Of a DNA stretch of 27,859 nucleotides, positions 1,295 to 27,859 are shown piece after piece. The notes beneath the pieces were generated by a model. That model was given only the letters and a program-made list of their open reading frames with translations. It was not told the DNA's origin and searched no databases. The stretch is taken from IMG/VR virus record IMGVR_UViG_3300042879_003490, positions 1 through 27,859 of that record. The stretch is one strand, 5' to 3'. Each line of letters starts with the position of its first letter. Within the stretch, counting starts at the first letter, position 1. This stretch comes from a virus. The position numbers and the translations under genes were made by a program.

Positions 1295-3631
1295 TTAAAC
1301 ATATATCCAAATTTCACCATCGGTAGTGTTTATATGCATATTACCATATCCAAAAGAAGAACTACCAAAAGTTGGTGCGTTTGAATCGGTTGGAGATACT
1401 CCTGATGATGAAACCGTTACCATAAAATCAGTTGGGGTTACATTCATTGAAGCCGTTCCTACACCCAATGCTACACCCCATCTGTTTGCTAAACCATTCG
1501 CTCCACCACTACCACTATTGAATACGAAAGCAGAGCCACTACCAGCAGCACCTTCAATAATTATACCACCTTCGGATGCGGGTGCTTGAGAACCTGAACT
1601 TCTTCCTAAAACGATAAACTTATCTTCTATTGATAAGGTAGATGTGTTGATTATTGTTGTTTCTCCATTTACTGTTAGGTCACCACCAACGACAACATTT
1701 CCTGTTGTGGTTATAGCAGCAGCCCCAACTGTTCCCGTAAATGTTGGTGAAGATGAGAATACCAAATTACCTGTTCCAGTTTCATCCGTTACTGCGGCTG
1801 CTAAGTTGGCTGATGATGGTATGTTTAAGAATGTTGCTACACCCGTACCTAATGTTTGAGTTGCCACCCTATTTGAAGATGTGATAACCAGCATGGTGCT
1901 TGAAAGTGCAGTTGCGGGTAATTGGTTAGCTAACGTAATGGTTTGTGCGTTTACAGTTACACTATCACCAATTGCATCCCCTAATGTAGTATTACCTGCT
2001 ATTGCAACAGTTCCATTGGTAGCACCCATATTAATACTAGCTGCTCCACCAAAGTTAATTGTAGTTGTAGTTCCGTTTAATAAGTTAACGGTAGTGTTAG
2101 TTGATGTTATATCACCACCATTTGCTGCTAAAGTACCGCCAACAGTAGCATTCCCACTCGTTGTAAGTGCTTGACCAAATAACCCAGCAGAAGAACTTAT
2201 ATTAGATGATGCGGTTATATTTACTGCGGTTATACCACCACCTACTTGAAGAGTGTTTGTTGGGGTAGCCGTATTTATACCGACTAAAGTAGCACCATTA
2301 CTTGCGGATATTTTTAAATCGGGTCTATTAGAACCACTATAACTAAATAAAATACCTCCACTTAAAACATGAGACCCTGTTGTAAAAGCTTCAAACCTTA
2401 AAGCCTGGTTATAAGCGCCTATTTGGGCCCAACTTGCGGATAATGGTGTTGTTGTTGCACCTGTGGTATAAGAACCGAATCCAATTTTAGGTCCTTCGGT
2501 ATCGGAAAATACATAAGTCCCGTATGAGTTTACATCGGTACTTACTCTACTTCCAACAACTATACCTTCATTCCCACCCGAACCAGAAACATTTAATCTT
2601 CCCGCAAATATTGGTGATGATCCTGTATCTGTATATCCAACTATAAATCTAGGATTAGCTTCGGTGGTCATAACAATTGAAGAGGTTGTTATTGTATTAT
2701 TATCAGACCACATGGTTAAACGTTGGCCTACACCAACACCATCTATTGTTGTTGGTAGTGCAATAGATGATGTATTGAATTTAGTGATGTTACCACTAGA
2801 ATCAATACCAAGAACTTGTACTTGTGCAAGTGTTGGTAATGCACTCGCGGTTAGATTTGTTGTTGAAATACCAGTCCCGCCTACTTGAAGAGTATTTGTT
2901 GGGGTTGTTGTACCTATACCTACATTACCTGTAGATGTTATTCTCATTCGTTCAGTAACTAACGAACCACTTTGATTTGTTCCAAATGCAAGGAAAGCAT
3001 CGGGAGTAGCATCTTCAGAAACGGCTTCTATAAAAGCTTTGGTTGTACCAGAGCCAGTAGTATCCGTATCATTGGAACTAAATATAATTCTTCCAATAGG
3101 TTGATCGGTAGTCGAGGTGGTGTCTGCGTCTAATAGCTGTATAAAATTAAGAGAATCACTACCCCCAACCGAATTGTAGGTTTTTTGATTACCACCTGCA
3201 CCACCGTTACTTGATCTTACAATTATAGATGCAGTAGTACCTACATTAGATGCATTAATATATAAACTGGGATTTGTTATTGTATTTGATGAATTAAGTT
3301 GGAGTAGCCCTAATGTTGGAGTTGTTGTACCTATGCCTATAGCACCACTACTACTAATAGTCATTGCTACCGAGCCACTTGTTTCAAATTGTAAATTTTG
3401 GTTATCGTTAGTACCTAAAACAGCAGCAGCACCAAATGAGTTGCCACCTTGTACAAATGCATTTGGGTTTACTATGGAAGATGTATTAAAATATGATAAC
3501 ACACCCGTTGTTGGGTCATAACCAACAATTTGCCCTGTGGGTACAGCAGTATTATTTGTTAGATTACTAGCAGTTATACCTTGTAAATGGGCCTGCGAAC
3601 CAGATACTATTACTTTTTTCCATGTTGCCAT
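1295..3631 (-). CDS. Large tail fibre protein with GIGTTxP/LQV repeats
   Basis: A 778-residue protein rich in Ser, Thr, Gly and Asn, of the kind that folds as a trimeric beta-rich fibre. The N-terminal ~55 residues (ATWKKVIVSGS, ITAS, GYDPTTGVLSYF) match the shorter fibre downstream and probably form the attachment domain. Repeat units A/N-I/V-G-I-G-T-T-T-P followed by LQL or LQV occur near residues 100 and 240, with a variant GINTATPTNTLQV near 455. The C-terminal ~100 residues (DKFIVLGRS, then NAPTFGSSSFGYGNMHINTTDGE) look like a terminal head domain. A strong ribosome binding site, TTAGGAGAG, precedes the ATG. No intramolecular chaperone or enzyme motif is seen. The host-recognition role is inferred. 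Confidence 0.8.
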   Translation of the reverse strand: MATWKKVIVSGSQAHLQGITASNLTNNTAVPTGQIVGYDPTTGVLSYFNTSSIVNPNAFVQGGNSFGAAAVLGTNDNQNLQFETSGSVAMTISSSGAIGIGTTTPTLGLLQLNSSNTITNPSLYINASNVGTTASIIVRSSNGGAGGNQKTYNSVGGSDSLNFIQLLDADTTSTTDQPIGRIIFSSNDTDTTGSGTTKAFIEAVSEDATPDAFLAFGTNQSGSLVTERMRITSTGNVGIGTTTPTNTLQVGGTGISTTNLTASALPTLAQVQVLGIDSSGNITKFNTSSIALPTTIDGVGVGQRLTMWSDNNTITTSSIVMTTEANPRFIVGYTDTGSSPIFAGRLNVSGSGGNEGIVVGSRVSTDVNSYGTYVFSDTEGPKIGFGSYTTGATTTPLSASWAQIGAYNQALRFEAFTTGSHVLSGGILFSYSGSNRPDLKISASNGATLVGINTATPTNTLQVGGGITAVNITASSNISSSAGLFGQALTTSGNATVGGTLAANGGDITSTNTTVNLLNGTTTTINFGGAASINMGATNGTVAIAGNTTLGDAIGDSVTVNAQTITLANQLPATALSSTMLVITSSNRVATQTLGTGVATFLNIPSSANLAAAVTDETGTGNLVFSSSPTFTGTVGAAAITTTGNVVVGGDLTVNGETTIINTSTLSIEDKFIVLGRSSGSQAPASEGGIIIEGAAGSGSAFVFNSGSGGANGLANRWGVALGVGTASMNVTPTDFMVTVSSSGVSPTDSNAPTFGSSSFGYGNMHINTTDGEIWIYV
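2242..2267 (-). repeat. 26-bp direct repeat inside the large fibre gene, copy 1
   Basis: These 26 bases recur at 2880-2905 with a single mismatch. They encode the PTNTLQVGG part of the fibre's repeat unit. Near-identity at the DNA level points to recent duplication or gene conversion between repeat modules. Confidence 0.6.
2880..2905 (-). repeat. 26-bp direct repeat inside the large fibre gene, copy 2
   Basis: Partner of 2242-2267, one mismatch over 26 bases and same orientation. Recombination between the copies would delete or duplicate about 638 bases. That is not a multiple of three, so a simple crossover would shift the reading frame; gene conversion is more likely than viable deletion. 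Confidence 0.6.
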
Positions 3632-3657
3632 ATTACTCTCCTAATGTAATTAAATTA

Positions 3658-3897
3658 TTATTTTTTTTGGTTTTGGTTTTCTTTCAGTTGTAAAAATTGG
3701 TTTTGAAGTTTAATGATTGTATTATAAACTAATTCAACATCACCAACAGTAAAAGTTAAATCTTTTAATGATGTCAATAAAAAAGTTATTTCATCAAAAT
3801 TTAAATCATTTTTATCTCCACTTTTTATATATTCAACAGTCTCAGGTTGATTAGAATCTGGTTGTTGTTTTACTCTTAGTTTGTCAAGTATGGACAT
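3658..3897 (-). CDS. Small helical protein of unknown function in fibre cluster
   Basis: A 79-residue polar protein that I do not recognise. The N-terminus (SILDKLRVKQQ) is followed by a charged segment and then predicted helices (FDEITFLLTSLKDLTF and VELVYNTIIKLQNQFLQL), ending in a Lys/Gln/Asn tail. There is no signal peptide or membrane segment. It has its own intergenic region with a palindromic TATTTATAAATA element and a TGAGG ribosome binding site, and is followed by the large fibre gene. Position between fibre genes suggests a fibre assembly or connector role, but nothing in the sequence proves this. Confidence 0.7.
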   Translation of the reverse strand: MSILDKLRVKQQPDSNQPETVEYIKSGDKNDLNFDEITFLLTSLKDLTFTVGDVELVYNTIIKLQNQFLQLKENQNQKK

Positions 3898-3924
3898 TTT
3901 GAAACCTCATATTATAGTTTAACT

Positions 3925-3936
3925 TATTTATAAATA
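3925..3936 (-). promoter_or_regulatory. Candidate T4-type late promoter, palindromic TATTTATAAATA
   Basis: The 12-base palindrome holds the T4 late -10 element TATAAATA on the sense strand (3932-3925), 27 bases before the ATG at 3897, with a TGAGG ribosome binding site between. It also contains TATTTATA (3936-3929). Because it is palindromic it could fire in both directions, but only minus-strand genes are nearby. The gp55-like sigma at 23298-24029 is the expected reader. Confidence 0.55.
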
Positions 3937-3956
3937 GTATTTATTTTTTTTATGTG

Positions 3957-4595
3957 TTACATTCCCAAGTAAAAATTTCCATCCGATGAATAATACATCC
4001 CACCAGTTATAGGGGTTGGTGGTGTATCAAATTTACCCAATACCATAACACCCTCTGAATTGATTTGTGCTGCAACGAAACTTCCCGATTTAATGATAAA
4101 GAAATCAGGCATTTCCGATGATATCTTTGTTTGGATTTGATTTGATTGATTATATATTACTACACTTGATGTGTTTATTCTTACATTTCCCAATTGGATG
4201 TATTCATCTCCCCCAAAAACTTCTGCAACTACACCAGTACTATCTACAAAACTCAAACTCCGACTCACATAAACATCACTCCAAGCAGCGGTGGCGCTAC
4301 CAACGGAGTGTATAGATGTATTTCCCGAAACAACATGTGGAATTAAAGAACCTGAAAAGTTTACTGAGCCTGAAAATGAACTTCTACCAATTATTAGGAG
4401 ATTTCCTAAAAGGTTTACCGAACCAGTTGTGGTTGTATTGGTAGTAACAGCCGCTTCAATTGATTGACCCGAACTACCTGATTTTTTTAGGAATATTTTA
4501 CCATCAGCAGTATTTACAGCTAACTCACCCAATTCTAATGAGGATGTGGTTGGTACATTTCCACTTCCAAGGTTTCTTCTAAGTAAAATTGACAT
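3957..4595 (-). CDS. Tail fibre / virion structural protein
   Basis: A 212-residue protein. Near residue 20 it carries LELGELAVNTADGKIFLKK, a motif frequently seen at the N-terminus of phage fibre proteins. The middle is Ser/Gly/Asn-rich (SVNLLGNLLIIGRSSFSGSVNFSGS) and the end (ITGGMYYSSDGNFYLGM) has the aromatic/glycine character of fibre tips. The start overlaps the stop of the 484-residue gene (TAATG) with GGGGGA upstream as ribosome binding site, implying translational coupling. It is probably a fibre component; its partner is unknown. Confidence 0.75.
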   Translation of the reverse strand: MSILLRRNLGSGNVPTTSSLELGELAVNTADGKIFLKKSGSSGQSIEAAVTTNTTTTGSVNLLGNLLIIGRSSFSGSVNFSGSLIPHVVSGNTSIHSVGSATAAWSDVYVSRSLSFVDSTGVVAEVFGGDEYIQLGNVRINTSSVVIYNQSNQIQTKISSEMPDFFIIKSGSFVAAQINSEGVMVLGKFDTPPTPITGGMYYSSDGNFYLGM

Positions 4596-6049
4596 TAGTA
4601 AAATCCCCCATCAACATTTAACGCAAAGGATGCGGTTATAGAATACGAACTACTTATAGGTGTTCCATTTTCCCATACACCTGCATTATATACCAACGCC
4701 TGCCCATTTGTGGGGGATGTAATAGTTACATTTGTTAAATCATCCAAAGTAGTTACAGCGCTTCCACCACCACCAGCTGCACCAACATTATTATAGCCAG
4801 CAAGAAAAGCATCTTTTTCTTCAATAAAATATGGCGATTCATCATTTAGTGAATTTACAAATTCTACTTTTATATCATTTAAATCATTTTCCTTTTCTGC
4901 TTGATACACAAAGGTATGTGTAGACTGTGTAAAATTTGTTGCAATGTTTGAGTAAATATCTGTTATAGATGAACTAATTCTAGAACTTAAAATTTTTGTA
5001 CCAACAAATTTATATTGGTTAGTTGTCTCAAATGATTTTGGTCTAATATAAACATTTATTTTATCAACATTACCAATTATTGGATTAACATCTTTTAAGG
5101 TGATGTGTAAAAGTGATTGTAAAAATTGTGTTTGCGAACCTGTTGTAGGAACTTCTATTGTAAAACTACCTGTTGAAAATGATGTAAATGTTTTTAATAT
5201 AGATTCAAGTTTCGTTGTTACCGATGCGGTTAGTGGATTTGAAACACGCGCTGTTTTACCATCTATCAAAGATTGTACAGAAGCGGTATAATTTATAGGT
5301 TTTAATAATCCAGCCGAAGCTTCTGCGGATGTTATCGTTGGTGATAAAGTTATATTCTGTAAATTAAAATATACTTTATTTCCAGCCAAATTAGAACCAA
5401 AGTTATATGATGATGTTGTTGGTAATCTTAAAAATACATTTTCACCACTAAAATCTGAAGAATATACGATGGTTTCATTTATAGATTCACTAACCAATAA
5501 TAGCTGACCGTTTTCGTCTGCGAAATTTAAATAAGATGAAATAGATTCTGATATTGATATTGTAGGTAATTCATTATTGGAGAATAGAATAGGAGATTCC
5601 GACCTATAATTTCTAGTTATTGGTATTTTTCTTCTCCACCGTATGTTTATAGTATTTTTAAACTCATCAGGTATTTCTTCACCATTTTCAGTTCTATCCG
5701 CAATACCACATATTATTACCTCACCAACCCCATTTGGGGTATTGTACATATCATTTCTTTGACCATACACCCACACCGAAATATAGCGTGATAAATCGCC
5801 CGGCTCATAATCAGGTATTTCATAATAAACCGATTGACCGTTTACATCTAAAATTTCAATAAATAGTTCAGAACCTGGCTGTAGTGTTACTCTGCTTGGT
5901 TTTACCCTAACGCCATTTTTTCCTCTACCAAAAAATTTAGGAAATTCGGTTATACCAAAATATGCTTCAGAAGTTAATGAAGTATCTTCAATATAAACTG
6001 GTACTGATTCTAAATTTTGTTTAAACCGTCTTTTAAGTTCTAATGACAT
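4595..6049 (-). CDS. Proximal tail-fibre or baseplate-to-fibre connector protein (putative)
   Basis: A 484-residue protein that I do not match to a named family. The first ~140 residues (LKRRFKQNLESVPVYIEDTS, FGRGKNGVRVKPSRVTLQPG, then ISVWVYGQ) look like a compact beta domain, perhaps the baseplate-facing part. The central region is long and Ser/Thr/Asn-rich. The C-terminal ~60 residues after a GGGGS linker (TTLDDLTNVTITSPTNGQAL, SSSYSITASFALN) resemble the ends of fibre proteins. It is the first gene of the fibre block, preceded by GGGAGAAATG as ribosome binding site and by a TATAAATA element in the end of the preceding gene. The structural role is inferred. Confidence 0.7.
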   Translation of the reverse strand: MSLELKRRFKQNLESVPVYIEDTSLTSEAYFGITEFPKFFGRGKNGVRVKPSRVTLQPGSELFIEILDVNGQSVYYEIPDYEPGDLSRYISVWVYGQRNDMYNTPNGVGEVIICGIADRTENGEEIPDEFKNTINIRWRRKIPITRNYRSESPILFSNNELPTISISESISSYLNFADENGQLLLVSESINETIVYSSDFSGENVFLRLPTTSSYNFGSNLAGNKVYFNLQNITLSPTITSAEASAGLLKPINYTASVQSLIDGKTARVSNPLTASVTTKLESILKTFTSFSTGSFTIEVPTTGSQTQFLQSLLHITLKDVNPIIGNVDKINVYIRPKSFETTNQYKFVGTKILSSRISSSITDIYSNIATNFTQSTHTFVYQAEKENDLNDIKVEFVNSLNDESPYFIEEKDAFLAGYNNVGAAGGGGSAVTTLDDLTNVTITSPTNGQALVYNAGVWENGTPISSSYSITASFALNVDGGFY

Positions 6050-6064
6050 TCATTTCTCCCATAA

Positions 6065-9000
6065 CTATAAGTATTTTATTGAAGAAAAAGAGTTTATTTT
6101 ATTTATATCAATTATCTGGTCTACCATATCCCTCGTTTTATCTATGTGGGATATCGTAATAATAAAATCAAATTGAGTTTTTAAATAATCAAATAGCAAA
6201 TACAAAGAATTAAAATTATCAGTATCCAGTGAACCAAACCCCTCATCAATAGCGATAAAGTTTGGACGGGGTAGGTTGGATATACTAATTAATGCGGTTC
6301 TGATTGCGATTGAACTCACAAACTTTTCCATACCACTTGTCAACTCTAATGGCCAATACTTATCATCTCCATAGCAAATATATGAGTTGATGTTTTTACC
6401 ATCGGTATCTAATATGATTTGGAAATCCACTATAGGTTGAAGAATATTGTTAATTTCAATCTCCAACGTTGGTAATATTTCTGCTATCAATCCATATGGA
6501 ATACCATCCCGCTTAACTGCTGATAAGTAGTGTTCGTATCCATTATACTTTAATTCCATTTGATTTAATTTTTTTACAGATTCATTTACAGACTCAATTG
6601 TATTTTTTTGAACACGTAACTCACCCAACAAATCTATTAAATCGGTTGTAACCTTATTTAATTCGGATTGAGTTTCCAATCTTTTTTGTTTTAGTGAATT
6701 AATTTCTTCATTAAGTTTGATGTTGAATTCAACCGATTTTTCTTGCTTTTTGGCTTTTTCAATGTTCGCAGATATTTTTTCGTATTGAGATTCGTATTGG
6801 TTATAATCGGATTTAGAATCATTTAATTCAGATAAAAGATTGTAGTATTTGCGGTTTACCTCTTGCTCTTTTTCTTTGACCTGATTTACCTTATCCAACT
6901 CCGTTTTTACATCACACCCCTTTTGTGTTTGAACTTTTTCTGATAGTTCGGTTTCTAATACGGATATCTTTTTAGTTAGTGTTACTATTTTAGTTTCCAA
7001 TTCCAAACTTTGCTTTGCAAATGGAGTGTTTTTATTTTTAACACAATGTTCACAATTATCATCGTATGTAAAAGAACCAATACCATCCAAATGCTTTTTG
7101 GTATGTGATAGTTCAATCTGATACTTTGATATGGTTTGTTTTATTAATGCGATATCCCGCTCTAAAACACGCCATTCATTATCTTTTGCTTTTAATTCAT
7201 CTAAATCATACTCTTTATAGAACTCGCCAATTCTTTCAAGCTTTTCCTCTAATGGTTTTACTTGGGATTGTAACTCCCTTATATTGGATGATATTGTTCC
7301 TATAGAATTCCTACAATCTTTTAATTCGGCATTTAATAACTCTAAGTTCAGATTACCATCCACCACAATTAACTTTGCAGACTTATCCTCAATTTGGTTG
7401 TGTATATTGTTAAGATTAGTTTCAAAATTTATTTTTTTGTTTTCCAAATCAGAAATAGAACCTGTTATAGATTGAGATACTAATTCGGCCTTAGCCAACT
7501 TTGTTGGAAAATCTTGCCCCTTATAATCTTTCAGTAAGGTTGATAACTCCTTTATTTCTTCACTTGCTACTGAATACAATTGCTCAAACACATCCATATC
7601 CAAAAATTGAGCAAGTAACTCTTTTCGTTCTTTTTGTGATTTATCAATAAAACCACTATTGTTAAATTGAGTTGAGAGAGCAGTCAATATGAAATCATCA
7701 TATGTTCCTACATACTGCCTAATAACTGAATTTGTATCTCTTCTTTCATCACCATTCAAACTTTCAATATCACCCATATCATTGAATGTGTAAAATTGAG
7801 TATCAACTTTTACAGTTCCCTTTTTGGTGGATTTATTTGCGGTTCTCTCAATTACATAATCCCTGCCATTTAGTTCAAAGATAAACTTACAATAAAAATT
7901 GTTTTTAGAATAATTCATCACATCAACTGCTTTTGATGTTCGGGAGCACTTATCAAAAATACAAAAGGATAAAGCATCCCACAAAGAAGATTTACCACTT
8001 GCGTTGGGAGCAAATACACCATACGCCCCTTTCATATTTTGAAAGTTTATATAGTTATCTTCCCCATAAGAAAACATATTTGAGAATTGAAATTCTTTTG
8101 GAATCCAAACCGAACTCCGAATTGCATGAGGATTTACAATCTTTGAGTTTATATCAGCGTTTATACCTTTGACAACTTCTAAAGCTTCTGAATCAATACC
8201 AAACTTTTGGGTCAAATAATCTTCCAATAGTTTATTTTGAAATCCAACATCCCTTACATTATGTAGAGTTATATGTTCTCGTTTTCCAACTTCGTTTGTA
8301 GATAAAACTTTCTGAATACTTAACTCTTCTATTTCATATTTCTTTTTTAAAGAAGATACAATTTTATTCAACTGTGATGTGGTTGTATCTTTAACCCTTA
8401 ATCTTAATCTTGGCTTTGGGCAAATGTAATTATTTGATACGATTTTACCATCTTCAATATCAATAGTTCCATACCCATACGCATTCTCAATATGAACGAA
8501 TGTGGAGGACTTTGTTGGTACATCCCATACCAATATCCCATGCTCAGGATAAATTGATTCTGAGTGGTTCTGTGTAATCAGGGAGCCTGGGTACTTTATA
8601 GTATCCACACCTGATACTGAATTATTGGGAACATGGATATCTCCCAAAAGAACAATATCATATCCTTTAAAAGAATCCACCGTAACTTTTTTGTTATCAA
8701 TCTTAAATCCATGCTCAGTTTGTATTCCATCAACGGGTCCGTGATAAAGAGCGATTTTAAAATCCCCATCAACGCCCGAACTATTTGTAAATCCATCCGA
8801 TGAATCGAATACTGATTTGTGTGCGAATACGATGCCACCAAACTCAAAGGTTGTAGTGTTTTTGTAGTAATATAAGTTTGGGTGATTTAAAGCATCAACA
8901 ATTGGTGATAACGCATCTAACCGAGAAGGGTTATTTAGATTTGCATCGTGGTTGCCAGGAATTAAAATGGTGGGCATGATATCCGATAAATTTCTCAAAA

Positions 9001-9205
9001 AGTTTTGAGTCATATGTACCACCTCCGGCGTCATATCGGTTTTAGCGTGAACTATATCCCCAGCTAATACAATAGCAGAGTCTTCAGTTACAACTGATTT
9101 TAAGTAATCATATAAACGATTAAAAACTAAAGAATACTCTTTATGTCTTTTTAAGTTTCGTATATGAACATCAGCAATATGATAAATCTTATTTAACTTT
9201 TTCAT
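6065..9205 (-). CDS. Single-chain Mre11-Rad50 (T4 gp47-gp46 / SbcD-SbcC) fusion
   Basis: In T4 and most organisms the SbcCD/Mre11-Rad50 nuclease-ATPase, used for DNA end processing, recombination-dependent replication and host-DNA degradation, is two proteins; here one 1046-residue frame holds both. Residues 1-~260 are a metallophosphoesterase with D12xH14, GD50, GNHD (84-87), H155 and GDIH (188-191). Residues ~380-1046 are the ATPase: Walker A around 399-407 (APNASGKSS), Q-loop near Q513, coiled coils ~545-700 and ~730-890, zinc hook C718-E-H-C721, signature LTSGME (955-960), Walker B FIAIDE (983-988), D-loop GSLD and H1020. All core residues are present, so both halves look active. Its ATG overlaps the primase stop (ATGA) after a strong AGGAGA site. 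The junction lies near residues 350-380. Confidence 0.93.
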   Translation of the reverse strand: MKKLNKIYHIADVHIRNLKRHKEYSLVFNRLYDYLKSVVTEDSAIVLAGDIVHAKTDMTPEVVHMTQNFLRNLSDIMPTILIPGNHDANLNNPSRLDALSPIVDALNHPNLYYYKNTTTFEFGGIVFAHKSVFDSSDGFTNSSGVDGDFKIALYHGPVDGIQTEHGFKIDNKKVTVDSFKGYDIVLLGDIHVPNNSVSGVDTIKYPGSLITQNHSESIYPEHGILVWDVPTKSSTFVHIENAYGYGTIDIEDGKIVSNNYICPKPRLRLRVKDTTTSQLNKIVSSLKKKYEIEELSIQKVLSTNEVGKREHITLHNVRDVGFQNKLLEDYLTQKFGIDSEALEVVKGINADINSKIVNPHAIRSSVWIPKEFQFSNMFSYGEDNYINFQNMKGAYGVFAPNASGKSSLWDALSFCIFDKCSRTSKAVDVMNYSKNNFYCKFIFELNGRDYVIERTANKSTKKGTVKVDTQFYTFNDMGDIESLNGDERRDTNSVIRQYVGTYDDFILTALSTQFNNSGFIDKSQKERKELLAQFLDMDVFEQLYSVASEEIKELSTLLKDYKGQDFPTKLAKAELVSQSITGSISDLENKKINFETNLNNIHNQIEDKSAKLIVVDGNLNLELLNAELKDCRNSIGTISSNIRELQSQVKPLEEKLERIGEFYKEYDLDELKAKDNEWRVLERDIALIKQTISKYQIELSHTKKHLDGIGSFTYDDNCEHCVKNKNTPFAKQSLELETKIVTLTKKISVLETELSEKVQTQKGCDVKTELDKVNQVKEKEQEVNRKYYNLLSELNDSKSDYNQYESQYEKISANIEKAKKQEKSVEFNIKLNEEINSLKQKRLETQSELNKVTTDLIDLLGELRVQKNTIESVNESVKKLNQMELKYNGYEHYLSAVKRDGIPYGLIAEILPTLEIEINNILQPIVDFQIILDTDGKNINSYICYGDDKYWPLELTSGMEKFVSSIAIRTALISISNLPRPNFIAIDEGFGSLDTDNFNSLYLLFDYLKTQFDFIITISHIDKTRDMVDQIIDINKINSFSSIKYL
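6100..6107 (-). promoter_or_regulatory. Candidate T4-type late promoter before the fibre block
   Basis: The sense strand reads TATAAATA, a perfect match to the T4 late -10 element, inside the final codons of the Mre11-Rad50 gene and 50 bases before the ATG at 6049. The position suits separate late transcription of the fibre block downstream of the DNA-metabolism cassette. Coding constraint (Asp-Ile-Asn-Lys) could also explain it. Confidence 0.4.
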
Positions 9206-10146
9206 TTTCTCCTAAACATTTTATACTCCACTAAACTTAACAAATTCAATTCAGGTGTATTGTATATTTTTGTGTTTATCTTATCGTAACCTAATTCAGA
9301 TGCGTCCTCCGAACCCAACTGAACTAAGTGAACTTTAATCCCCCAACCCATTAGTTTTTCGCATAGTTGGATAGAGTTATTAATAGCATCGGAATCTAAG
9401 CAAACATAGATACGGGACACTTTTTTATCTAAAATTTTCTTTTCTAATTTAGGTGGAATGGTTTTACCAAAAATAGGAATTGCGTTTCTACGAATTGCGA
9501 TTGCATCAAAAACACCCTCACAAATAACAATTGGTTCATTCCAATTCACATACAAATCAAACCCAATAATATCTTTGGATACTTTTGGATTTTTATGCTT
9601 TTGTGGTGTATCATAAAAAGCCCTACTAACAAAGTAATTTAACATACCATCTGAATCGTATGAGGGAATAATAATTTTATTACTATATTCACCCTCAACA
9701 CAATACCCCATTCCATACTTAACAATATCACCAGGTCGGATTCCCCTACCTAAAATGTAATTTAAGGCGTGCGAATAAATAACGGACTTGGATGATTCCC
9801 AAAGAGGAGTAAACTCTTTTGGTAGTTGAACAAATGTTTGTTGTTGTGTTAATTGTTCAGTCGGTTGTGTGTATTTTCCAATGTTTCTGAAAATAGAATT
9901 GTATTCATCCCATATTTGCGAAGATACATTTAGTTTTTTAAAGAGAGAACGAATCGTTTTTCCCTTTTCATCCGATATCCAACAATGCCAAGGGTTATCA
10001 CCAGCAGCCGTTGTTTTTATGTTTATTTCAAGCTTTGGTTTGTAATGTTCGGCAAATGGTGAATAAAAAGCATAGTTATCCCCAGTGGTTTTTTTACTTT
10101 TACCCAAAACCCGTTCTAATAACTCAATCAATCTTTCTTCTACCAT
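9202..10146 (-). CDS. DNA primase, T4 gp61-like TOPRIM enzyme with degenerate zinc ribbon
   Basis: A 314-residue primase that would make RNA primers for lagging-strand synthesis, normally with a hexameric helicase that is not in this window. The TOPRIM core is clear: E210-G211 in VICEGVFDAIAI and D251xD253 in YVCLDSDA. The N-terminal domain (YAFYSPF ... KPKLEINI ... NPWHCWISDEKG, residues 25-62) aligns with phage primase zinc ribbons, but where C-P-F-C and HCW-x-C are expected it has S29, A32 and S58; only C55 remains. Length is close to T4 gp61 (342). The start overlaps the end of the mom-like gene by 23 bases and the stop overlaps the Mre11-Rad50 start. A TATTTATA octamer lies 15 bases before the ATG. 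Confidence 0.85.
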   Translation of the reverse strand: MVEERLIELLERVLGKSKKTTGDNYAFYSPFAEHYKPKLEINIKTTAAGDNPWHCWISDEKGKTIRSLFKKLNVSSQIWDEYNSIFRNIGKYTQPTEQLTQQQTFVQLPKEFTPLWESSKSVIYSHALNYILGRGIRPGDIVKYGMGYCVEGEYSNKIIIPSYDSDGMLNYFVSRAFYDTPQKHKNPKVSKDIIGFDLYVNWNEPIVICEGVFDAIAIRRNAIPIFGKTIPPKLEKKILDKKVSRIYVCLDSDAINNSIQLCEKLMGWGIKVHLVQLGSEDASELGYDKINTKIYNTPELNLLSLVEYKMFRRK

Positions 10147-10738
10147 TTCTTAAATCGTAAGTATAAATATACTTTGGTAAGTTAGTAATTATTTTTACAT
10201 TCTCATCACCCGCTTTGTATCTCCTATTTATTTCAACCCCATAAGGTCTATCCAACATAGAAAGGGTTCTAATGTGAAATGATTTACCATCCACCTCCAA
10301 TGATTTTGATGGAGATGTTTCACCTAAATAATTAAAATTAGAAGCACGATAGATAACCCCCTTATGCCCCTGATTTTGGTCTGCGTAACTTATTATATAT
10401 TCCCAATCGGTATTTTTTTGTAACCACTTGATTGTTTTAGATATAAAATAGGATTCAGCGTTTTTTGGTGTATCATCTACCAAACACAACCTCCGTAACT
10501 CCAAAACCTTATCGGGACGGGATGGGTGATATGTCTGCCCAGCAGATGGACCTGCGGGGCGTGTGTAAATACAAACCCCAATTATTTGGGGCATACCAAA
10601 ATTTCCTTCCCTAAGTAGAATAAATGCGTGTTTTGTTTGTATATTTACATAATCAGAGTAGTGCCACTTTTTCAAAAAGGCACGAATGTTCTCATTAAAT
10701 GTAGTATGTTCTACTGTGTATGTTTTTACTAAACCCAT
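10124..10738 (-). CDS. Mom-like DNA-modification enzyme (GNAT-fold)
   Basis: This resembles the Mu Mom family, GNAT-fold proteins that convert adenine in phage DNA to N6-methylcarbamoyl-adenine and so block restriction. Recognisable blocks are LELRRLCLVDDTPKNAESYF (79-98) and SYADQNQGHKGVIYRASNF (117-135), followed by YLG and a basic C-terminus. I chose the ATG at 10738 (204 residues). A TTG at 10747 would extend it by three residues, but would fall just inside the likely transcript start. A sigma70-like promoter ends only eight bases upstream, so the mRNA may be leaderless; no ribosome binding site is visible. It sits between the endonuclease I and primase genes. The family call is fairly secure; the exact modification is inferred. 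Confidence 0.82.
   Translation of the reverse strand: MGLVKTYTVEHTTFNENIRAFLKKWHYSDYVNIQTKHAFILLREGNFGMPQIIGVCIYTRPAGPSAGQTYHPSRPDKVLELRRLCLVDDTPKNAESYFISKTIKWLQKNTDWEYIISYADQNQGHKGVIYRASNFNYLGETSPSKSLEVDGKSFHIRTLSMLDRPYGVEINRRYKAGDENVKIITNLPKYIYTYDLRNGRRKID
10162..10169 (-). promoter_or_regulatory. TATTTATA octamer before primase
   Basis: The sense strand reads TATTTATA within the longer near-palindrome AGTATATTTATACT, 15 bases before the primase ATG at 10146 and inside the end of the mom-like gene. It is one of four copies placed 15-31 bases before a start codon. Confidence 0.35.
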
Positions 10739-10745
10739 TCTACAC

Positions 10746-10774
10746 AATATACAACATAAAAGTTAATTATCCAA
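10746..10774 (-). promoter_or_regulatory. Sigma70-like promoter of the mom-like gene
   Basis: Sense strand: TTGGAT at 10774-10769, a 17-base spacer, then TATATT at 10751-10746. The sequence TGTTGTATATTGT around the -10 and the TTTGG around the -35 recur with exactly the same spacing before clpP (25795-25767). A start point about seven bases downstream falls at about 10739, next to the ATG at 10738. It lies across the end of the endonuclease I gene. Confidence 0.6.
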
Positions 10775-11186
10775 ATAAAAATGTTTTGGGTTCTTCATTT
10801 ACCCATTCTATTGGAACTTGCTTCGTAGCCCACTTAAAACCATTTTTATCTGCCCACATACCATATGTAGTTTTTGACCTTTTATTTAATTTTGCGTTTG
10901 GGTTCTGAAATACAATTCGTATATCCAAATCAGGCTTTTGGGCTTTTATTAGTAGATGTTTTTTTCTATCCTCTAAAGTAAACCTACCTTTTGTTTCTAT
11001 GAAAATACCATTCGGTAATCTGAAATCAGGTTTGTATGTATGATTTGTTGCGGGTTTAGTGTATTGTATTTGGTGTTTTTCGTATTCACCATCAATACCT
11101 ATTTGTTTTAATTCTTCCGAAACTTTATCCTCTAAACCCGAGCGATGCCCTTTGGTTCTTTGGATGTGACCCCAATTTTTTGGCAT
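10767..11186 (-). CDS. Endonuclease I, T7 gp3-type Holliday-junction resolvase
   Basis: A 139-residue homologue of T7 endonuclease I, which cleaves four-way junctions and branched DNA and, in T7, also breaks down host DNA. The match is close in order and spacing: SGLEDKVS (16-23), NHTYKPDF (48-55), LPNGIFIETKG (57-67) and DRKKHLL (73-79). The catalytic residues of T7 (E20, D55, E65, K67) correspond to E19, D54, E64 and K66. T7's enzyme is 149 residues, so this is essentially full length. It is the first gene of the DNA-metabolism cassette; T4 uses an unrelated resolvase (gp49) for this job, so the gene looks exchanged from a T7-like source. Confidence 0.93.
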   Translation of the reverse strand: MPKNWGHIQRTKGHRSGLEDKVSEELKQIGIDGEYEKHQIQYTKPATNHTYKPDFRLPNGIFIETKGRFTLEDRKKHLLIKAQKPDLDIRIVFQNPNAKLNKRSKTTYGMWADKNGFKWATKQVPIEWVNEEPKTFLFG

Positions 11187-24310: not shown

Positions 24311-25117
24311 TTAATCCTCCATTATATCTTTAAACGCATCAAACACCATATCAACTTTTGGTTTATCATCCTCTGATTTTTCAGACACAATTTTTTCAAA
24401 TTTAGATAACCCCGATGGTTTTCCATTTGTACCAATAGTTCCTCTTGTACCTTTTAACTTTTTACCTTCAATTACCCAACGAGTGTATTCATACTTTGAT
24501 GCCATAAAATCTGCCTGGTGTAGAATATGGGGTAAAAATGTTTTTAATTGGTTTTCAGCCTGAAAAGTTTTATAGTAACTTTCGGTGGATGAATCATACA
24601 ACCCATCTGTCAGTCGGATAGCAAGATATTCTTCTTCAGTACATTTTACGCCAAAATGATTTAGTAGAAAGAATGTACGGTCTTGAATTTCCATCCAATG
24701 TAAATTTGGGTTTGATTTATAAATCTTACCCTGATTCTTTACATGCCATTCCGAATCATTCTTTTTATACCAATCATCTTCAACCGAACCCACCTTACCT
24801 AAATCGTGATGTAGTGCTGCAAAGACAACCGATTCTCTTGTAATATCATCAGTAACCATATCCAACTCTTTCCAAAGTTCAAATACCTTTAGAGCATTGC
24901 GAGTTACCCTCATTATATGGTCAATATATCCGCCGGGAAAAGCATTATGAAAATGCTCAAAGGATGAGGCGGGTGTATAGATAATCCTTTCTTCAAAATG
25001 GTCATACATTTTGTTTAGGGCATCTAATCGTTCACCACTAAATTCTTGACTGATAAATTTTCTGAACTTTTTATAATTTTCCAGTAGTTCTTCTGGAGAG
25101 AAAAAATCAAAATACAT
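24311..25117 (-). CDS. HD-domain metal-dependent phosphohydrolase
   Basis: A 268-residue HD-superfamily protein. The metal-binding set is visible: H67 in GGYIDHIMRV, H104-D105 in ALHHDLGKVG, H154 in LLNHFGV and D203 in HQADFMASKYE. The G-G-Y-I-D-H-x-M-R-V-T-R and H-D-L-G-K-V spacing resembles the YhaM-type HD nucleases, but no OB domain precedes it here. Possible activities are phosphodiester or nucleotide hydrolysis during host takeover; the substrate cannot be read from the sequence. The C-terminal ~50 residues are basic, then acidic. It starts two bases after the clpP stop and precedes the small membrane protein by one base. Confidence 0.82.
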   Translation of the reverse strand: MYFDFFSPEELLENYKKFRKFISQEFSGERLDALNKMYDHFEERIIYTPASSFEHFHNAFPGGYIDHIMRVTRNALKVFELWKELDMVTDDITRESVVFAALHHDLGKVGSVEDDWYKKNDSEWHVKNQGKIYKSNPNLHWMEIQDRTFFLLNHFGVKCTEEEYLAIRLTDGLYDSSTESYYKTFQAENQLKTFLPHILHQADFMASKYEYTRWVIEGKKLKGTRGTIGTNGKPSGLSKFEKIVSEKSEDDKPKVDMVFDAFKDIMED

Positions 25118-25119
25118 AA

Positions 25120-25743
25120 TTAAATAATTTTATCAATAATACCCAATTCAAGTGCTTCTGCAGCGGATAAAAATAAATCACTTTGTTGATTTGACTGCCA
25201 CCACTCTTTTGGTTTATTTGTGAATTCAGCCATCATACTATTACACTCATCTTCCAACCTATCCGCAAATTTGGCGTTTGATTTTACATCGCTTAATTTA
25301 CCTGCTGCAAAGGTTGATAGTTGGTGAACCATAATCTTTGAATGCTTTGATGCTGCTCTAACCCCAGTACCTGCTGCGAGTAGAAGAGCCGCTGCTGACA
25401 TTGCGATGCCCCTACAAATGATATTAAATTTCATATCTTTGTTTCCTCTGATATAATCAATAATACCAAGAGTTTCTACAACATCACCTCCGCCCGAATT
25501 TAATAGGATGTTGATTGTGGTTGTTTCGGTATTTACTTTTTTTAGTAGCCGTACTTTAGCAATAAATTCAGGCAGTAATCCCATCTGAATTTCATCGCAG
25601 ATTACAATTACATTATCGGTTAAATCAATACCGTAATCAAACTCCCTAAAAAAATGTTTGTGCGGGTCAGTATCATCACCACTTTCATTTTTGTAATCAA
25701 ATTTTACATTTGAAGGATTGGTATTATAAAGTTCATCTATCAT
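25120..25743 (-). CDS. clpP: ClpP-type serine protease
   Basis: A 207-residue ClpP-fold protease with the catalytic triad in order: S116 in RGIAMSAAALL, H140 in IMVHQLS and D189 in QQSDLFLSAAEALELGIID. Also present are the oxyanion-loop block NSGGGDVVETLGIIDYI (82-98) and an N-terminal extension of ~40 residues, acidic and without a visible signal. Host ClpP works with an AAA+ unfoldase; phage versions serve as prohead proteases or may redirect host proteolysis. No capsid gene lies nearby in this window, so a role in head maturation is not supported by context. The gene heads a small group with its own sigma70-like promoter (25767-25795). The 5' leader has no clear ribosome binding site. Confidence 0.9.
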   Translation of the reverse strand: MIDELYNTNPSNVKFDYKNESGDDTDPHKHFFREFDYGIDLTDNVIVICDEIQMGLLPEFIAKVRLLKKVNTETTTINILLNSGGGDVVETLGIIDYIRGNKDMKFNIICRGIAMSAAALLLAAGTGVRAASKHSKIMVHQLSTFAAGKLSDVKSNAKFADRLEDECNSMMAEFTNKPKEWWQSNQQSDLFLSAAEALELGIIDKII

Positions 25744-26824: not shown

Positions 26825-26989
26825 TTATTCCATTTTTTTAACTTTATTAACTTCCTCAGTTGTATTTATTATCAAATCTTTTGATATCAAGCTTGATTGT
26901 AAACAACAAGTAATAACAAGACAAACTTGAAAATATAAAATAAATATCCAAAAATAGATAATAACCTTAAACAGGTTAATTCTGCCCAT
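26825..26989 (-). CDS. Small single-span membrane protein (54 residues)
   Basis: The apparent gap between the UV-endonuclease and the polytopic membrane gene is an open frame of 54 codons. It begins at an ATG overlapping the last 14 bases of the UV-endonuclease gene and stops three bases before the next ATG. Residues ~8-30 form a hydrophobic span (VIIYFWIFILYFQVCLVI), followed by TCCLQSS and a polar, charged end (TTEEVNKVKKME). The cysteines resemble a lipobox only loosely (Thr at -1). No good ribosome binding site is seen. Exact packing between neighbours supports it; the function is unknown. Confidence 0.5.
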   Translation of the reverse strand: MGRINLFKVIIYFWIFILYFQVCLVITCCLQSSLISKDLIINTTEEVNKVKKME

Positions 26990-27859
26990 ACTGATTTAAG
27001 TAATTAAGAACCGCTAATTCTTTCATTTTAGCTTCTACTTCAATATCCAAATCGTAACCATAAGTTTCAATTTTGTTTGAAATAAAATCTGAATGTGCTT
27101 GAGGGATTTTACCTGGTGCTGATTCTGAATAGTGAACTACGGGTTTGATTCCATCGGGCCAAGTTGTCATTGCTAACTCCAAAGCTTCCTGCTCTGATAA
27201 ACCACCTGTACAAAATTTGTGGTGGTGGTAATCAAATACAATTGGGATACCAGTTCTTTGGTGGATATACATCAGGTCTTTTACTGAATACATACTTGCC
27301 TTATCATCGTTTTCTACCGTCAGCCTGGTTTTAACCGATTCAGGCAACCTTTCAAAGTTCCGACAGAATCTATCCATCGCTGATTCTTTATCCCCATAGA
27401 CACCATTACAATGGATATTAATGACATTGTAGGGGGTTCTACTCAACCCCATCAGGTCAAAGACCTCCCCATGCAACGATAAATCGGTTATGGTGTTGTT
27501 TACCACCTTTTCATTGGGTGAAACGAGTACATTAAAGGGGCCAGGATGAGATGTAATCCTTTGTCCATAGTTGGATACCAATACCCCAGCACCCTTCAGG
27601 AGATTGGATATATGAGCAAAATGAGGCATATCTGATAGTGGGTACTCAGATGACCAGGGGAATAGATTGGAGGTGATTCTAAAGAGTTTTATACCCATAT
27701 TTTCATTCCATTTGATAATCTCTATCAGGTCACGAGTGTTTTGCAACCCAAGCTCCGAAGCCCTGCTAATACCTTCCTTTAAAAAGGTTTTTCTAATCAT
27801 ACCCCTATTGGTGGTAATCTTTTTCTTGCCCAAAGTCATATTGATGCAAGCGTATCCTA
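26976..27859 (-). CDS. uvdE: UV-damage endonuclease UvdE, N-terminus cut by window edge
   Basis: UvdE is a TIM-barrel metallo-endonuclease that nicks 5' of UV photoproducts. The frame continues upstream of the first in-window ATG (27839): codons for G-Y-A-C-I-N precede it, matching the usual N-terminal LGYACIN of the family. The true start is therefore outside the window, and at least 293 residues are visible. Numbered from the ATG at 27839, likely metal ligands are H98 (TSHPGPF), H143 (INIHCNG), E176 (TVENDD), D203 and H206 (FDYHHHKF), H236 (VVHYSE), H249 (AHSDF) and E269. The protein looks intact. A phage copy would repair its DNA in sunlight. It is followed by the 54-residue ORF with a 14-base overlap. 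Confidence 0.93.
   Translation of the reverse strand, partial: GYACINMTLGKKKITTNRGMIRKTFLKEGISRASELGLQNTRDLIEIIKWNENMGIKLFRITSNLFPWSSEYPLSDMPHFAHISNLLKGAGVLVSNYGQRITSHPGPFNVLVSPNEKVVNNTITDLSLHGEVFDLMGLSRTPYNVINIHCNGVYGDKESAMDRFCRNFERLPESVKTRLTVENDDKASMYSVKDLMYIHQRTGIPIVFDYHHHKFCTGGLSEQEALELAMTTWPDGIKPVVHYSESAPGKIPQAHSDFISNKIETYGYDLDIEVEAKMKELAVLNYLNQYGQN

Follow-up and report, generated by a model that had tools for sequence, protein, structure and literature searches.

The window analysed here, the whole 27,859-nucleotide stretch of the virus record IMGVR_UViG_3300042879_003490 (a 27.9-kb IMG/VR record), raises the question whether one gene on its minus strand, at positions 6065-9205, encodes in a single polypeptide both the nuclease Mre11 (SbcD; gp47 of phage T4) and the ATPase Rad50 (SbcC; gp46 of T4), and, if so, whether the fusion is genuine, whether it is of a new kind and what role it serves. 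The results described below confirm that this gene is a genuine one-gene Mre11-Rad50 fusion, and they make it highly likely that a natural SbcD-SbcC fusion takes the place of separate gp47 and gp46 proteins in one aquatic clade of T4-like phages. The fusion is real, well supported and ordinary within its group, and fusions of this kind have been known since 2011.

A single reading frame encodes both proteins

The open reading frame (ORF) at this locus specifies 1046 amino acids (aa), starts with an ATG at position 9205 and contains no internal stops. The ATG overlaps the stop codon of the primase gene as ATGA, and the sequence AGGAG is located 3 nt 5' of it. The two parts of the protein are recognised by different families, viz. 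Pfam Metallophos at residues 6-193 (E 2.7e-9; 38.2 bits against a cut-off of 21.5) and the SbcC family phrog_77 of PHROGs at residues 345-1045 (E 5.9e-53). In a phmmer search of the PDB the top matches of the window protein were SbcC and Rad50 chains, and a profile built from 45 homologues also matched chains of SbcD and of Mre11, over residues 4-219 in the longest case. The modules present form an intact set under selection, consisting of the nuclease, a cap, a helix-loop-helix, a short joint, an ATPase lobe, a coiled coil with a zinc hook and a second ATPase lobe.

Integrity of the junction in related contigs

Relatives were collected by scans of IMG/VR with the protein as query (18 loci), with an alignment as query (the best 80 of at least 572 relatives) and with three further fusions (1, 10 and 20 loci). 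After removal of 11 same-contig repeats 118 distinct contigs were left, which are not all independent phages, one of them (L114) being Tenacibaculum phage PTm1. A single frame spans the junction, with window residues 230-560 covered, in 117 of these contigs; the exception, L019, reaches a contig end at residue 137. In 106 of the 118 the single frame is aligned from residue 20 or before to residue 990 or beyond. Among the other 11 of the 117, four (L016, L065, L066 and L067) are cut by contig ends, five (L115, L120, L121, L123 and L124) have long single frames of 1243-1257 aa along which the BLAST alignment breaks off early, L038 has a stop codon in the coil, at about residue 830, and L144 has a split nuclease but keeps the junction in frame (see below). 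The query matched 648 records of the GenBank phage collection, four of them over at least 80% of its length, viz. Microcystis phage Mel-JY01 and three uncultured huge-phage records. The frame is single in Mel-JY01 (1066 aa) and in LR756501 (1202 aa), and it is split by an insert in LR756508. For PTm1 the tblastn match covers just 23% of the query, but both parts are encoded by its gene of 1318 aa. The continuous frame and the domain order that were originally predicted are thus borne out, the latter being found in many IMG/VR contigs as well as in named phages.

Selection was assessed from the ratio of nonsynonymous to synonymous changes (dN/dS). Against the relatives L013, L015 and L010 this ratio is 0.02-0.2 in all seven regions compared, and at residues 350-380 it is 0.07, 0.03 and 0.08, respectively; the synonymous changes in these pairs are heavy (0.36-0.67 per site before correction). 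These results bear upon the possibility that the fusion is an artefact of assembly or sequencing, in which two adjacent genes were joined and a frameshift or stop at the junction is hidden. Such an origin is suggested by the fact that the window is one IMG/VR fragment, and also by the tight overlap of related operons (14 bp for D12/D13 of T5-like phages and 1 bp for the unfused nuclease/ATPase pair of Vibrio phage VP06), which a single indel could join. However, as the frame remains uninterrupted at the junction in 117 of the 118 contigs and in the named phages Mel-JY01 and PTm1, and as dN/dS at residues 350-380 is low in all three completed pairs, we consider this explanation extremely improbable.

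Domain organization and conserved residues

The original prediction envisaged that the nuclease is linked to the ATPase head through only about 100-120 residues, which would take the place of the capping and Rad50-binding parts of Mre11. The predicted structure does not bear this out. In the better AlphaFold model (50-sequence alignment; predicted local distance difference test score, pLDDT, 82.1; predicted template modelling score, pTM, 0.47) the nuclease core extends to about residue 242, residues 243-300 fold as a cap, two helices at 320-334 and 339-356 form a helix-loop-helix, and the first Rad50 strand begins at residue 366. Based on this model the cap is present, the helix-loop-helix is next to it, and the joint itself comprises about 8-10 residues. 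The helix-loop-helix, whose pLDDT is 86-91 over residues 321-350 and 72 over 351-360, is the probable Rad50-binding element. An earlier model had a pLDDT of 73 and a poor C-lobe, and use of a more diverse alignment raised the pLDDT to 82.

Structural comparisons agree with this division. In VIA-align residues 5-300 of the first model matched Staphylococcus aureus SbcD (7dog_B, consisting of nuclease and capping domain) with a Z of 25.1 (root-mean-square deviation (rmsd) 3.4, 275 aligned), and Escherichia coli SbcD in complex (6s6v_B) was aligned over residues 5-357 with a high rmsd of 8.9. The second model matched E. coli SbcC of the DNA-bound SbcCD head (7yzo_D) over residues 367-1046 (Z 31.8, rmsd 3.8, 350 aligned). 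In the latter alignment SbcC residue 1 corresponds to residue 367 of the model, and the alignments with 3av0_B and 5dny_B start at residue 365. The spacing between W227 and W367 is 141-144 residues in all 45 aligned homologues. By hhalign, residues 6-343 correspond to residues 2-325 of T4 gp47 with a probability of only 52%, the alignment to the gp47 C-terminus being weak, and hhalign of the linker region alone gave nothing useful. As T4 gp47 is 339 aa long, the Mre11 half of the fusion is of ordinary phage length. The helices of the coiled coil in the model are at residues 566-609, 621-663, 668-709, 728-763, 767-820 and 822-897, and the zinc-hook CxxC (C718/C721) sits between long helices; the zinc-hook model PF04423 gave no match to the window protein at E 0.01.

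The motif residues of the Mre11 half are D12/H14, D50/H53, N85/H86, H155 and D189/H191, and those of the Rad50 half are APNASGKS (399-406), CEHC (718-721), TSGME (956-960), FIAIDE (983-988) and H1020. We take these to be the metal motifs of the nuclease and the P-loop, signature and Walker B of the ATPase. All of the Rad50 motifs that were predicted (P-loop, CxxC zinc hook, signature and Walker B) are present in frame, and their key residues G404, K405, C718, C721, S957, G958, M959, E960, D987 and E988, as well as H1020, are invariant in the 45 homologues. The first Gly of the P-loop is replaced by Ala, and the signature reads TSGME. In the Mre11 half D12, H14, D50, H53, N85, H86, D87, H155, D189 and H191 are likewise invariant (45/45). 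The claim that all metallophosphoesterase motifs are present is not exact, in that the motifs are there but two of the ligand positions, H53 and D189, are substituted.

Genome setting and probable function

The surroundings of the fusion gene were compared across 97 distinct loci, left from 106 after removal of 9 repeats; they include the window's own copy (L001), loci cut by contig ends, the unfused VP06 pair and the distant loci L022 and L104-L106. A homologue of the window primase is present in 93 of these loci and a homologue of its T7-type endonuclease I in 87, and in the loci inspected (e.g. L031) the gene order is endonuclease I, primase and fusion. The gene content of larger genomes was examined in seven large relatives, viz. 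six IMG/VR contigs of 162-187 kb, whose records may be incomplete, and Mel-JY01 (190 kb). In all seven the fusion is the only strong match to phrog_77, and in six of them Metallophos matches are confined to the fusion. The SbcD family phrog_100 is found in four of the seven, each time inside the fusion. All seven encode RecA and a gp23-type capsid protein. A photosystem reaction-centre protein was found in none of the seven, which lends no support to a cyanobacterial host beyond the record of Mel-JY01 itself. In the more distant LR756508 and PTm1, phrog_77 also matches at the fusion only. That none of the seven large relatives has another strong Rad50 match, together with the co-occurrence of RecA, primase and endonuclease I, supports a role like that of gp46/gp47. 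By analogy with these T4 proteins, the activity is most likely that of an ATP-gated nuclease which prepares DNA ends for recombination-dependent replication.

Several observations weigh against the fusion as the Mre11-Rad50 (MR) enzyme that replaces the separate proteins in these phages. Mel-JY01 has two additional weak phrog_77 matches (E 7e-6 and 1.8e-4), and one of the seven large records has two further small metallophosphoesterases. The family phrog_100 misses the fusion itself in three of the seven, and due to this its silence elsewhere in these genomes is weak evidence. Besides its 1202-aa fusion, the 735-kb genome LR756501 has a second and stronger SbcC-like match and three further Metallophos matches, which indicates that fused and unfused forms can coexist. 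A very close pair (L003, for which three regions were computed) gave a dN/dS of 0.27 at residues 317-368, based on very few changes. The structure model is of a monomer only, with a pTM of 0.47, and the nuclease would be seated on the heads by analogy with the family. Lastly, H53 and D189 depart from canonical Mre11, where Asp and His, respectively, are usual. At the corresponding sites T4 gp47 has GDIFD (Asp) and GHFH (His).

If these two substitutions had abolished or altered the nuclease, then the protein, although a real fusion, would act mainly as an SMC-like (structural maintenance of chromosomes) DNA tether. The existence of a distant phage-like locus (L106) with a helix-loop-helix and Rad50 but no nuclease is in keeping with this explanation. 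However, D12, H14, D50, N85, H86, H155, D189 and H191 are invariant in 45/45 homologues, and Asp and His are both able to bind metal. Further, GDVFH and GDLH, i.e. the same residues as at H53 and D189, are found in the unfused D12 protein of Stubb, a T5-like phage of Proteus, and it will thus be incorrect to interpret this pattern as a mark of fusion. The fused proteins of PTm1 and of the 735-kb phage retain GDIH, with other residues at position 53. Both departures are also seen in Mimivirus R555, for which PMC3175470 describes a change of the third-motif Asp to His and an Asp at the site of Pyrococcus furiosus His206. An inactive or altered nuclease is therefore unlikely.

It has also to be considered whether the fusion could be an SMC-type defence or counter-defence protein, similar to Wadjet JetC or Lamassu, instead of an enzyme of replication and recombination. 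JetABC and Lamassu chains are among the Foldseek matches, as is expected for any SMC/Rad50 head. However, the ten best structural matches of the second model are all Rad50 or SbcC (Z 29.2-31.8), the primase and endonuclease I genes are recurrent neighbours, and no other strong Rad50-type match occurs in the seven large relatives, all of which encode RecA. JetC and Lamassu are absent from the best 50 structural matches of the second model, which by itself tests nothing. On this evidence from structural matches, gene neighbours and gene content, a defence role of this kind is, in our assessment, very unlikely.

For a fusion that acts in place of gp46 and gp47, the family suggests the following mode of action. 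Two chains would dimerise via nuclease and head contacts into the usual M2R2 globule (two Mre11 and two Rad50 units), in which the helix-loop-helix would bind the coiled-coil root of its own or the partner chain. Binding of ATP would shut the heads over the nuclease, and hydrolysis would open the nuclease to DNA ends or hairpins. The zinc hook may join the coiled coils or tether DNA. During infection, processing of DNA ends would let RecA start recombination-dependent replication, and endonuclease I may resolve the resulting branches. The fusion would fix a 1:1 ratio and assembly in cis, leaving the chemistry unchanged. Separate Mre11 and Rad50 already form M2R2. Hence, the 1:1 stoichiometry attributed to the fusion by the original prediction is indeed fixed by it, but it represents no change.

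Other features of the window and variant loci

The coordinates of the fusion, its parts and other genes of the window are listed in Table 1.

Table 1. Features identified in the window
Feature	Position	Strand	Basis
Fused Mre11-Rad50 gene, whole, 1046 aa	6065..9205	-	ORF; Pfam and PHROGs matches; intact in relatives
Mre11/SbcD phosphodiesterase, residues 1-242	8480..9205	-	Metallophos, 7dog_B match, invariant residues
Mre11 capping domain (strand-strand-helix-strand), residues 243-300	8306..8479	-	AlphaFold model; SbcD nuclease-plus-cap match reaches 300
Probable Rad50-binding helix-loop-helix, residues 320-356	8138..8248	-	Two helices in predicted model
Joint of about 10 residues, 357-366 (8 if Rad50 start is taken as 365)	8108..8137	-	Helix end at 356; SbcC alignment start
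Rad50 N-lobe, residues 367-560	7526..8107	-	7yzo_D structural match
P-loop, residues 399-406	7988-8011	-	Motif APNASGKS
Coiled coil around zinc hook, residues 561-897	6515..7525	-	Model helices
Zinc hook C718-E-H-C721	7043..7054	-	Both Cys invariant in 45/45
Rad50 C-lobe, residues 898-1046, with H1020	6068..6514	-	Structural match, invariant residues
ABC (ATP-binding cassette) signature TSGME, residues 956-960	6326-6340	-	Motif
Walker B FIAIDE, residues 983-988	6242-6259	-	Motif
DNA primase (TOPRIM)	9202..10146	-	phrog_47, E 2.9e-34; overlaps fusion start
Mom-like DNA modification gene	10124-10747		PF25680, E 3.3e-34
T7-type endonuclease I (Holliday-junction resolvase by family)	10767..11186	-	PF05367, E 2.7e-55
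Gene with weak HD-domain match	24311-25117		Adjoins ClpP-like protease gene
ClpP-like protease	25120-25743		E 3.4e-32; nearest PHROGs are head maturation proteases
UvdE UV-damage endonuclease in phage	26976-27839		PF03851, E 7.9e-63

The Mom-like gene lies between the endonuclease I and primase genes, and as homologues of it are present in only 20 of the 97 loci, it is a variable part of the cassette.

Some of the relatives show altered forms of the gene. In LR756508.1 (L021, positions 2953-7178), a 484-kb phage, the fusion gene is broken just after GDIH by an ORF of 305 aa, in which a TnsA-like endonuclease domain is recognised (PF08722, E 5.8e-6); the pieces are a half-nuclease ORF and an ORF of the remainder plus Rad50. 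This looks like a homing-endonuclease insertion or a gene in pieces. For the insert only a sub-threshold snoRNA match and no group I intron were seen with Rfam, which gave no match at gathering thresholds in the window or in L020-L022. L144 (2983-6223) has a split at nearly the same site of the nuclease, about residues 200-212 and following GDIHKMQYM. The two resulting ORFs overlap, extra residues flank the split on either side, no endonuclease lies in between, and the junction is in frame; the nuclease may by nature be made in two pieces, or this single contig may be misassembled. The locus L106 (1524-3953), on a 5-kb contig in a Paludibacteraceae bin, has an 809-aa ORF lacking the nuclease, in which the match to the window protein runs from residue 299, just before the helix-loop-helix, through Rad50, and a primase-like ORF is upstream of it. 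The second SbcC-like match of LR756501.1 (670999-672753, E 3.7e-74) is read through one TAG and three TAA codons. Lastly, L104 is a contig carrying the fusion, primase and endonuclease I of the clade that was placed in a bin of Nitrosopelagicus, an ammonia-oxidising archaeon, which could be either a host link or a binning error.

Origin of the fusion and comparison with known systems

In T4, gene 47 is followed by two small genes and then by gene 46, and in T5-like phages D12 is followed directly by the overlapping D13. The nuclease-then-ATPase order of the fusion is the same as in these two-gene operons, and thus a small indel at an overlap could make the fusion. In a Rad50 tree the 17 fused rows, inclusive of the nuclease-less L106, group together with support of 99/99, apart from seven unfused phage rows. 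In the Mre11 tree the unfused Stubb D12 is placed inside the window clade. Terminal branches in these trees reach up to 7.7 changes per site, with a warning of long-branch joining. A tentative reading, to which we give a rather low probability, is that, among phages, R555-like fusions have their main reservoir in this aquatic T4-like clade and that the genes of giant viruses are derived from a phage fusion of this type, or that both descend from one fusion of a T5 D12/D13-like pair. On the same reading, obligate linkage in cis could allow the nuclease of one chain to serve that chain's own ATPase head, which would make the MR machine simpler and its cycle unlike that of the two-protein enzyme.

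The novelty of the fusion as such has to be rejected. Yoshida, Claverie and Ogata 2011 (PMC3175470) describe Mre11/Rad50 fusions in Mimivirus (R555) and in twelve further sequences, among them examples from Bacillus phage 0305phi8-36, plasmids, bacteria and eukaryotes. The original prediction that there is no characterised example therefore fails descriptively, in view of these thirteen sequences, but it may hold biochemically, as no experimental study of a natural Mre11-Rad50 fusion was found in the open-licence literature. No paper on Microcystis phage Mel-JY01 was found, and in a jumbo-phage review (PMC7824862) SbcC and SbcD are treated as partners, with the fusion unmentioned in the passages concerned. 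Of the 25 records yielded by a plasmid search not one covered 80% of the query, and they did not include the Clostridium kluyveri fusion described in 2011. According to PMC3175470, full fusion was confirmed in few long environmental sequences only, and some aquatic R555-like genes, located on scaffolds with phage primases and endonucleases, were suspected to be phage-borne. The window and its relatives fit this inference, and they point to a concrete T4-like phage group, represented by long contigs and by one named phage, as one origin of the R555-like genes found in abundance in ocean metagenomes in 2011. Further, in seven large relatives the fusion is not an oddity beside a normal pair but the only strong Rad50-type match of the phage. 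With its fixed stoichiometry, an MR enzyme made as one chain of about 1050 aa would suit structural and single-molecule work on the gating of Mre11 by Rad50.

In comparison to R555 and the other fusions of 2011, the window protein is similar in being one protein with Mre11 followed by Rad50 and a short linker, estimated at 9-12 residues in that work, where the same logic of the domains is put forward, and most of those fusions retain the length of the cap and helix-loop-helix (PMC3175470). However, R555 is a 1351-aa protein of a giant virus, whereas the fusion in the window is of 1046 aa and belongs to a T4-like phage. The example from Bacillus phage 0305phi8-36 is described there as incomplete, lacking the cap/helix-loop-helix part and one P-loop segment, whereas the window fusion has all of the parts. 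Of the 50 matches listed from BFVD, 16 align over at least 1100 columns, and the nine best are seven named proteins of giant or large algal viruses and two nameless ones, after which come phages pT24 and PTm1 and, lower down, Listeria phage LMTA-57. The best of these, the 1379-aa Tupanvirus protein A0A6N1NVE8 (E 3.1e-76; 1306 columns aligned at 26% identity), is longer and from a eukaryotic virus, and its length of alignment suggests that it is fused. The Mel-JY01 protein WWT39521.1 is a single 1066-aa fusion, about 41% identical over its full length, with a primase-like gene upstream and one small ORF between them; it differs in being annotated as 'AAA domain containing protein', with the fusion unnamed, and in having an upstream GIY-YIG gene but no endonuclease I homologue. 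The PTm1 protein (1318 aa) has a metallophosphoesterase-type start, a Rad50 head and a zinc hook in one frame, while the likeness of the Tenacibaculum phage pT24 protein (1310 aa) is by structural match only. Both of these are longer, are 15-17% identical (BFVD) and are annotated as metallo-phosphoesterase or DNA repair proteins, not as fusions. Lastly, the T4 gp47/gp46 and T5-type D12/D13 proteins are the same functional pair, encoded in the order nuclease gene and then ATPase gene, but they are two polypeptides, and of these the D12 of Stubb shares the motifs GDxxH and GDxH with the window fusion.

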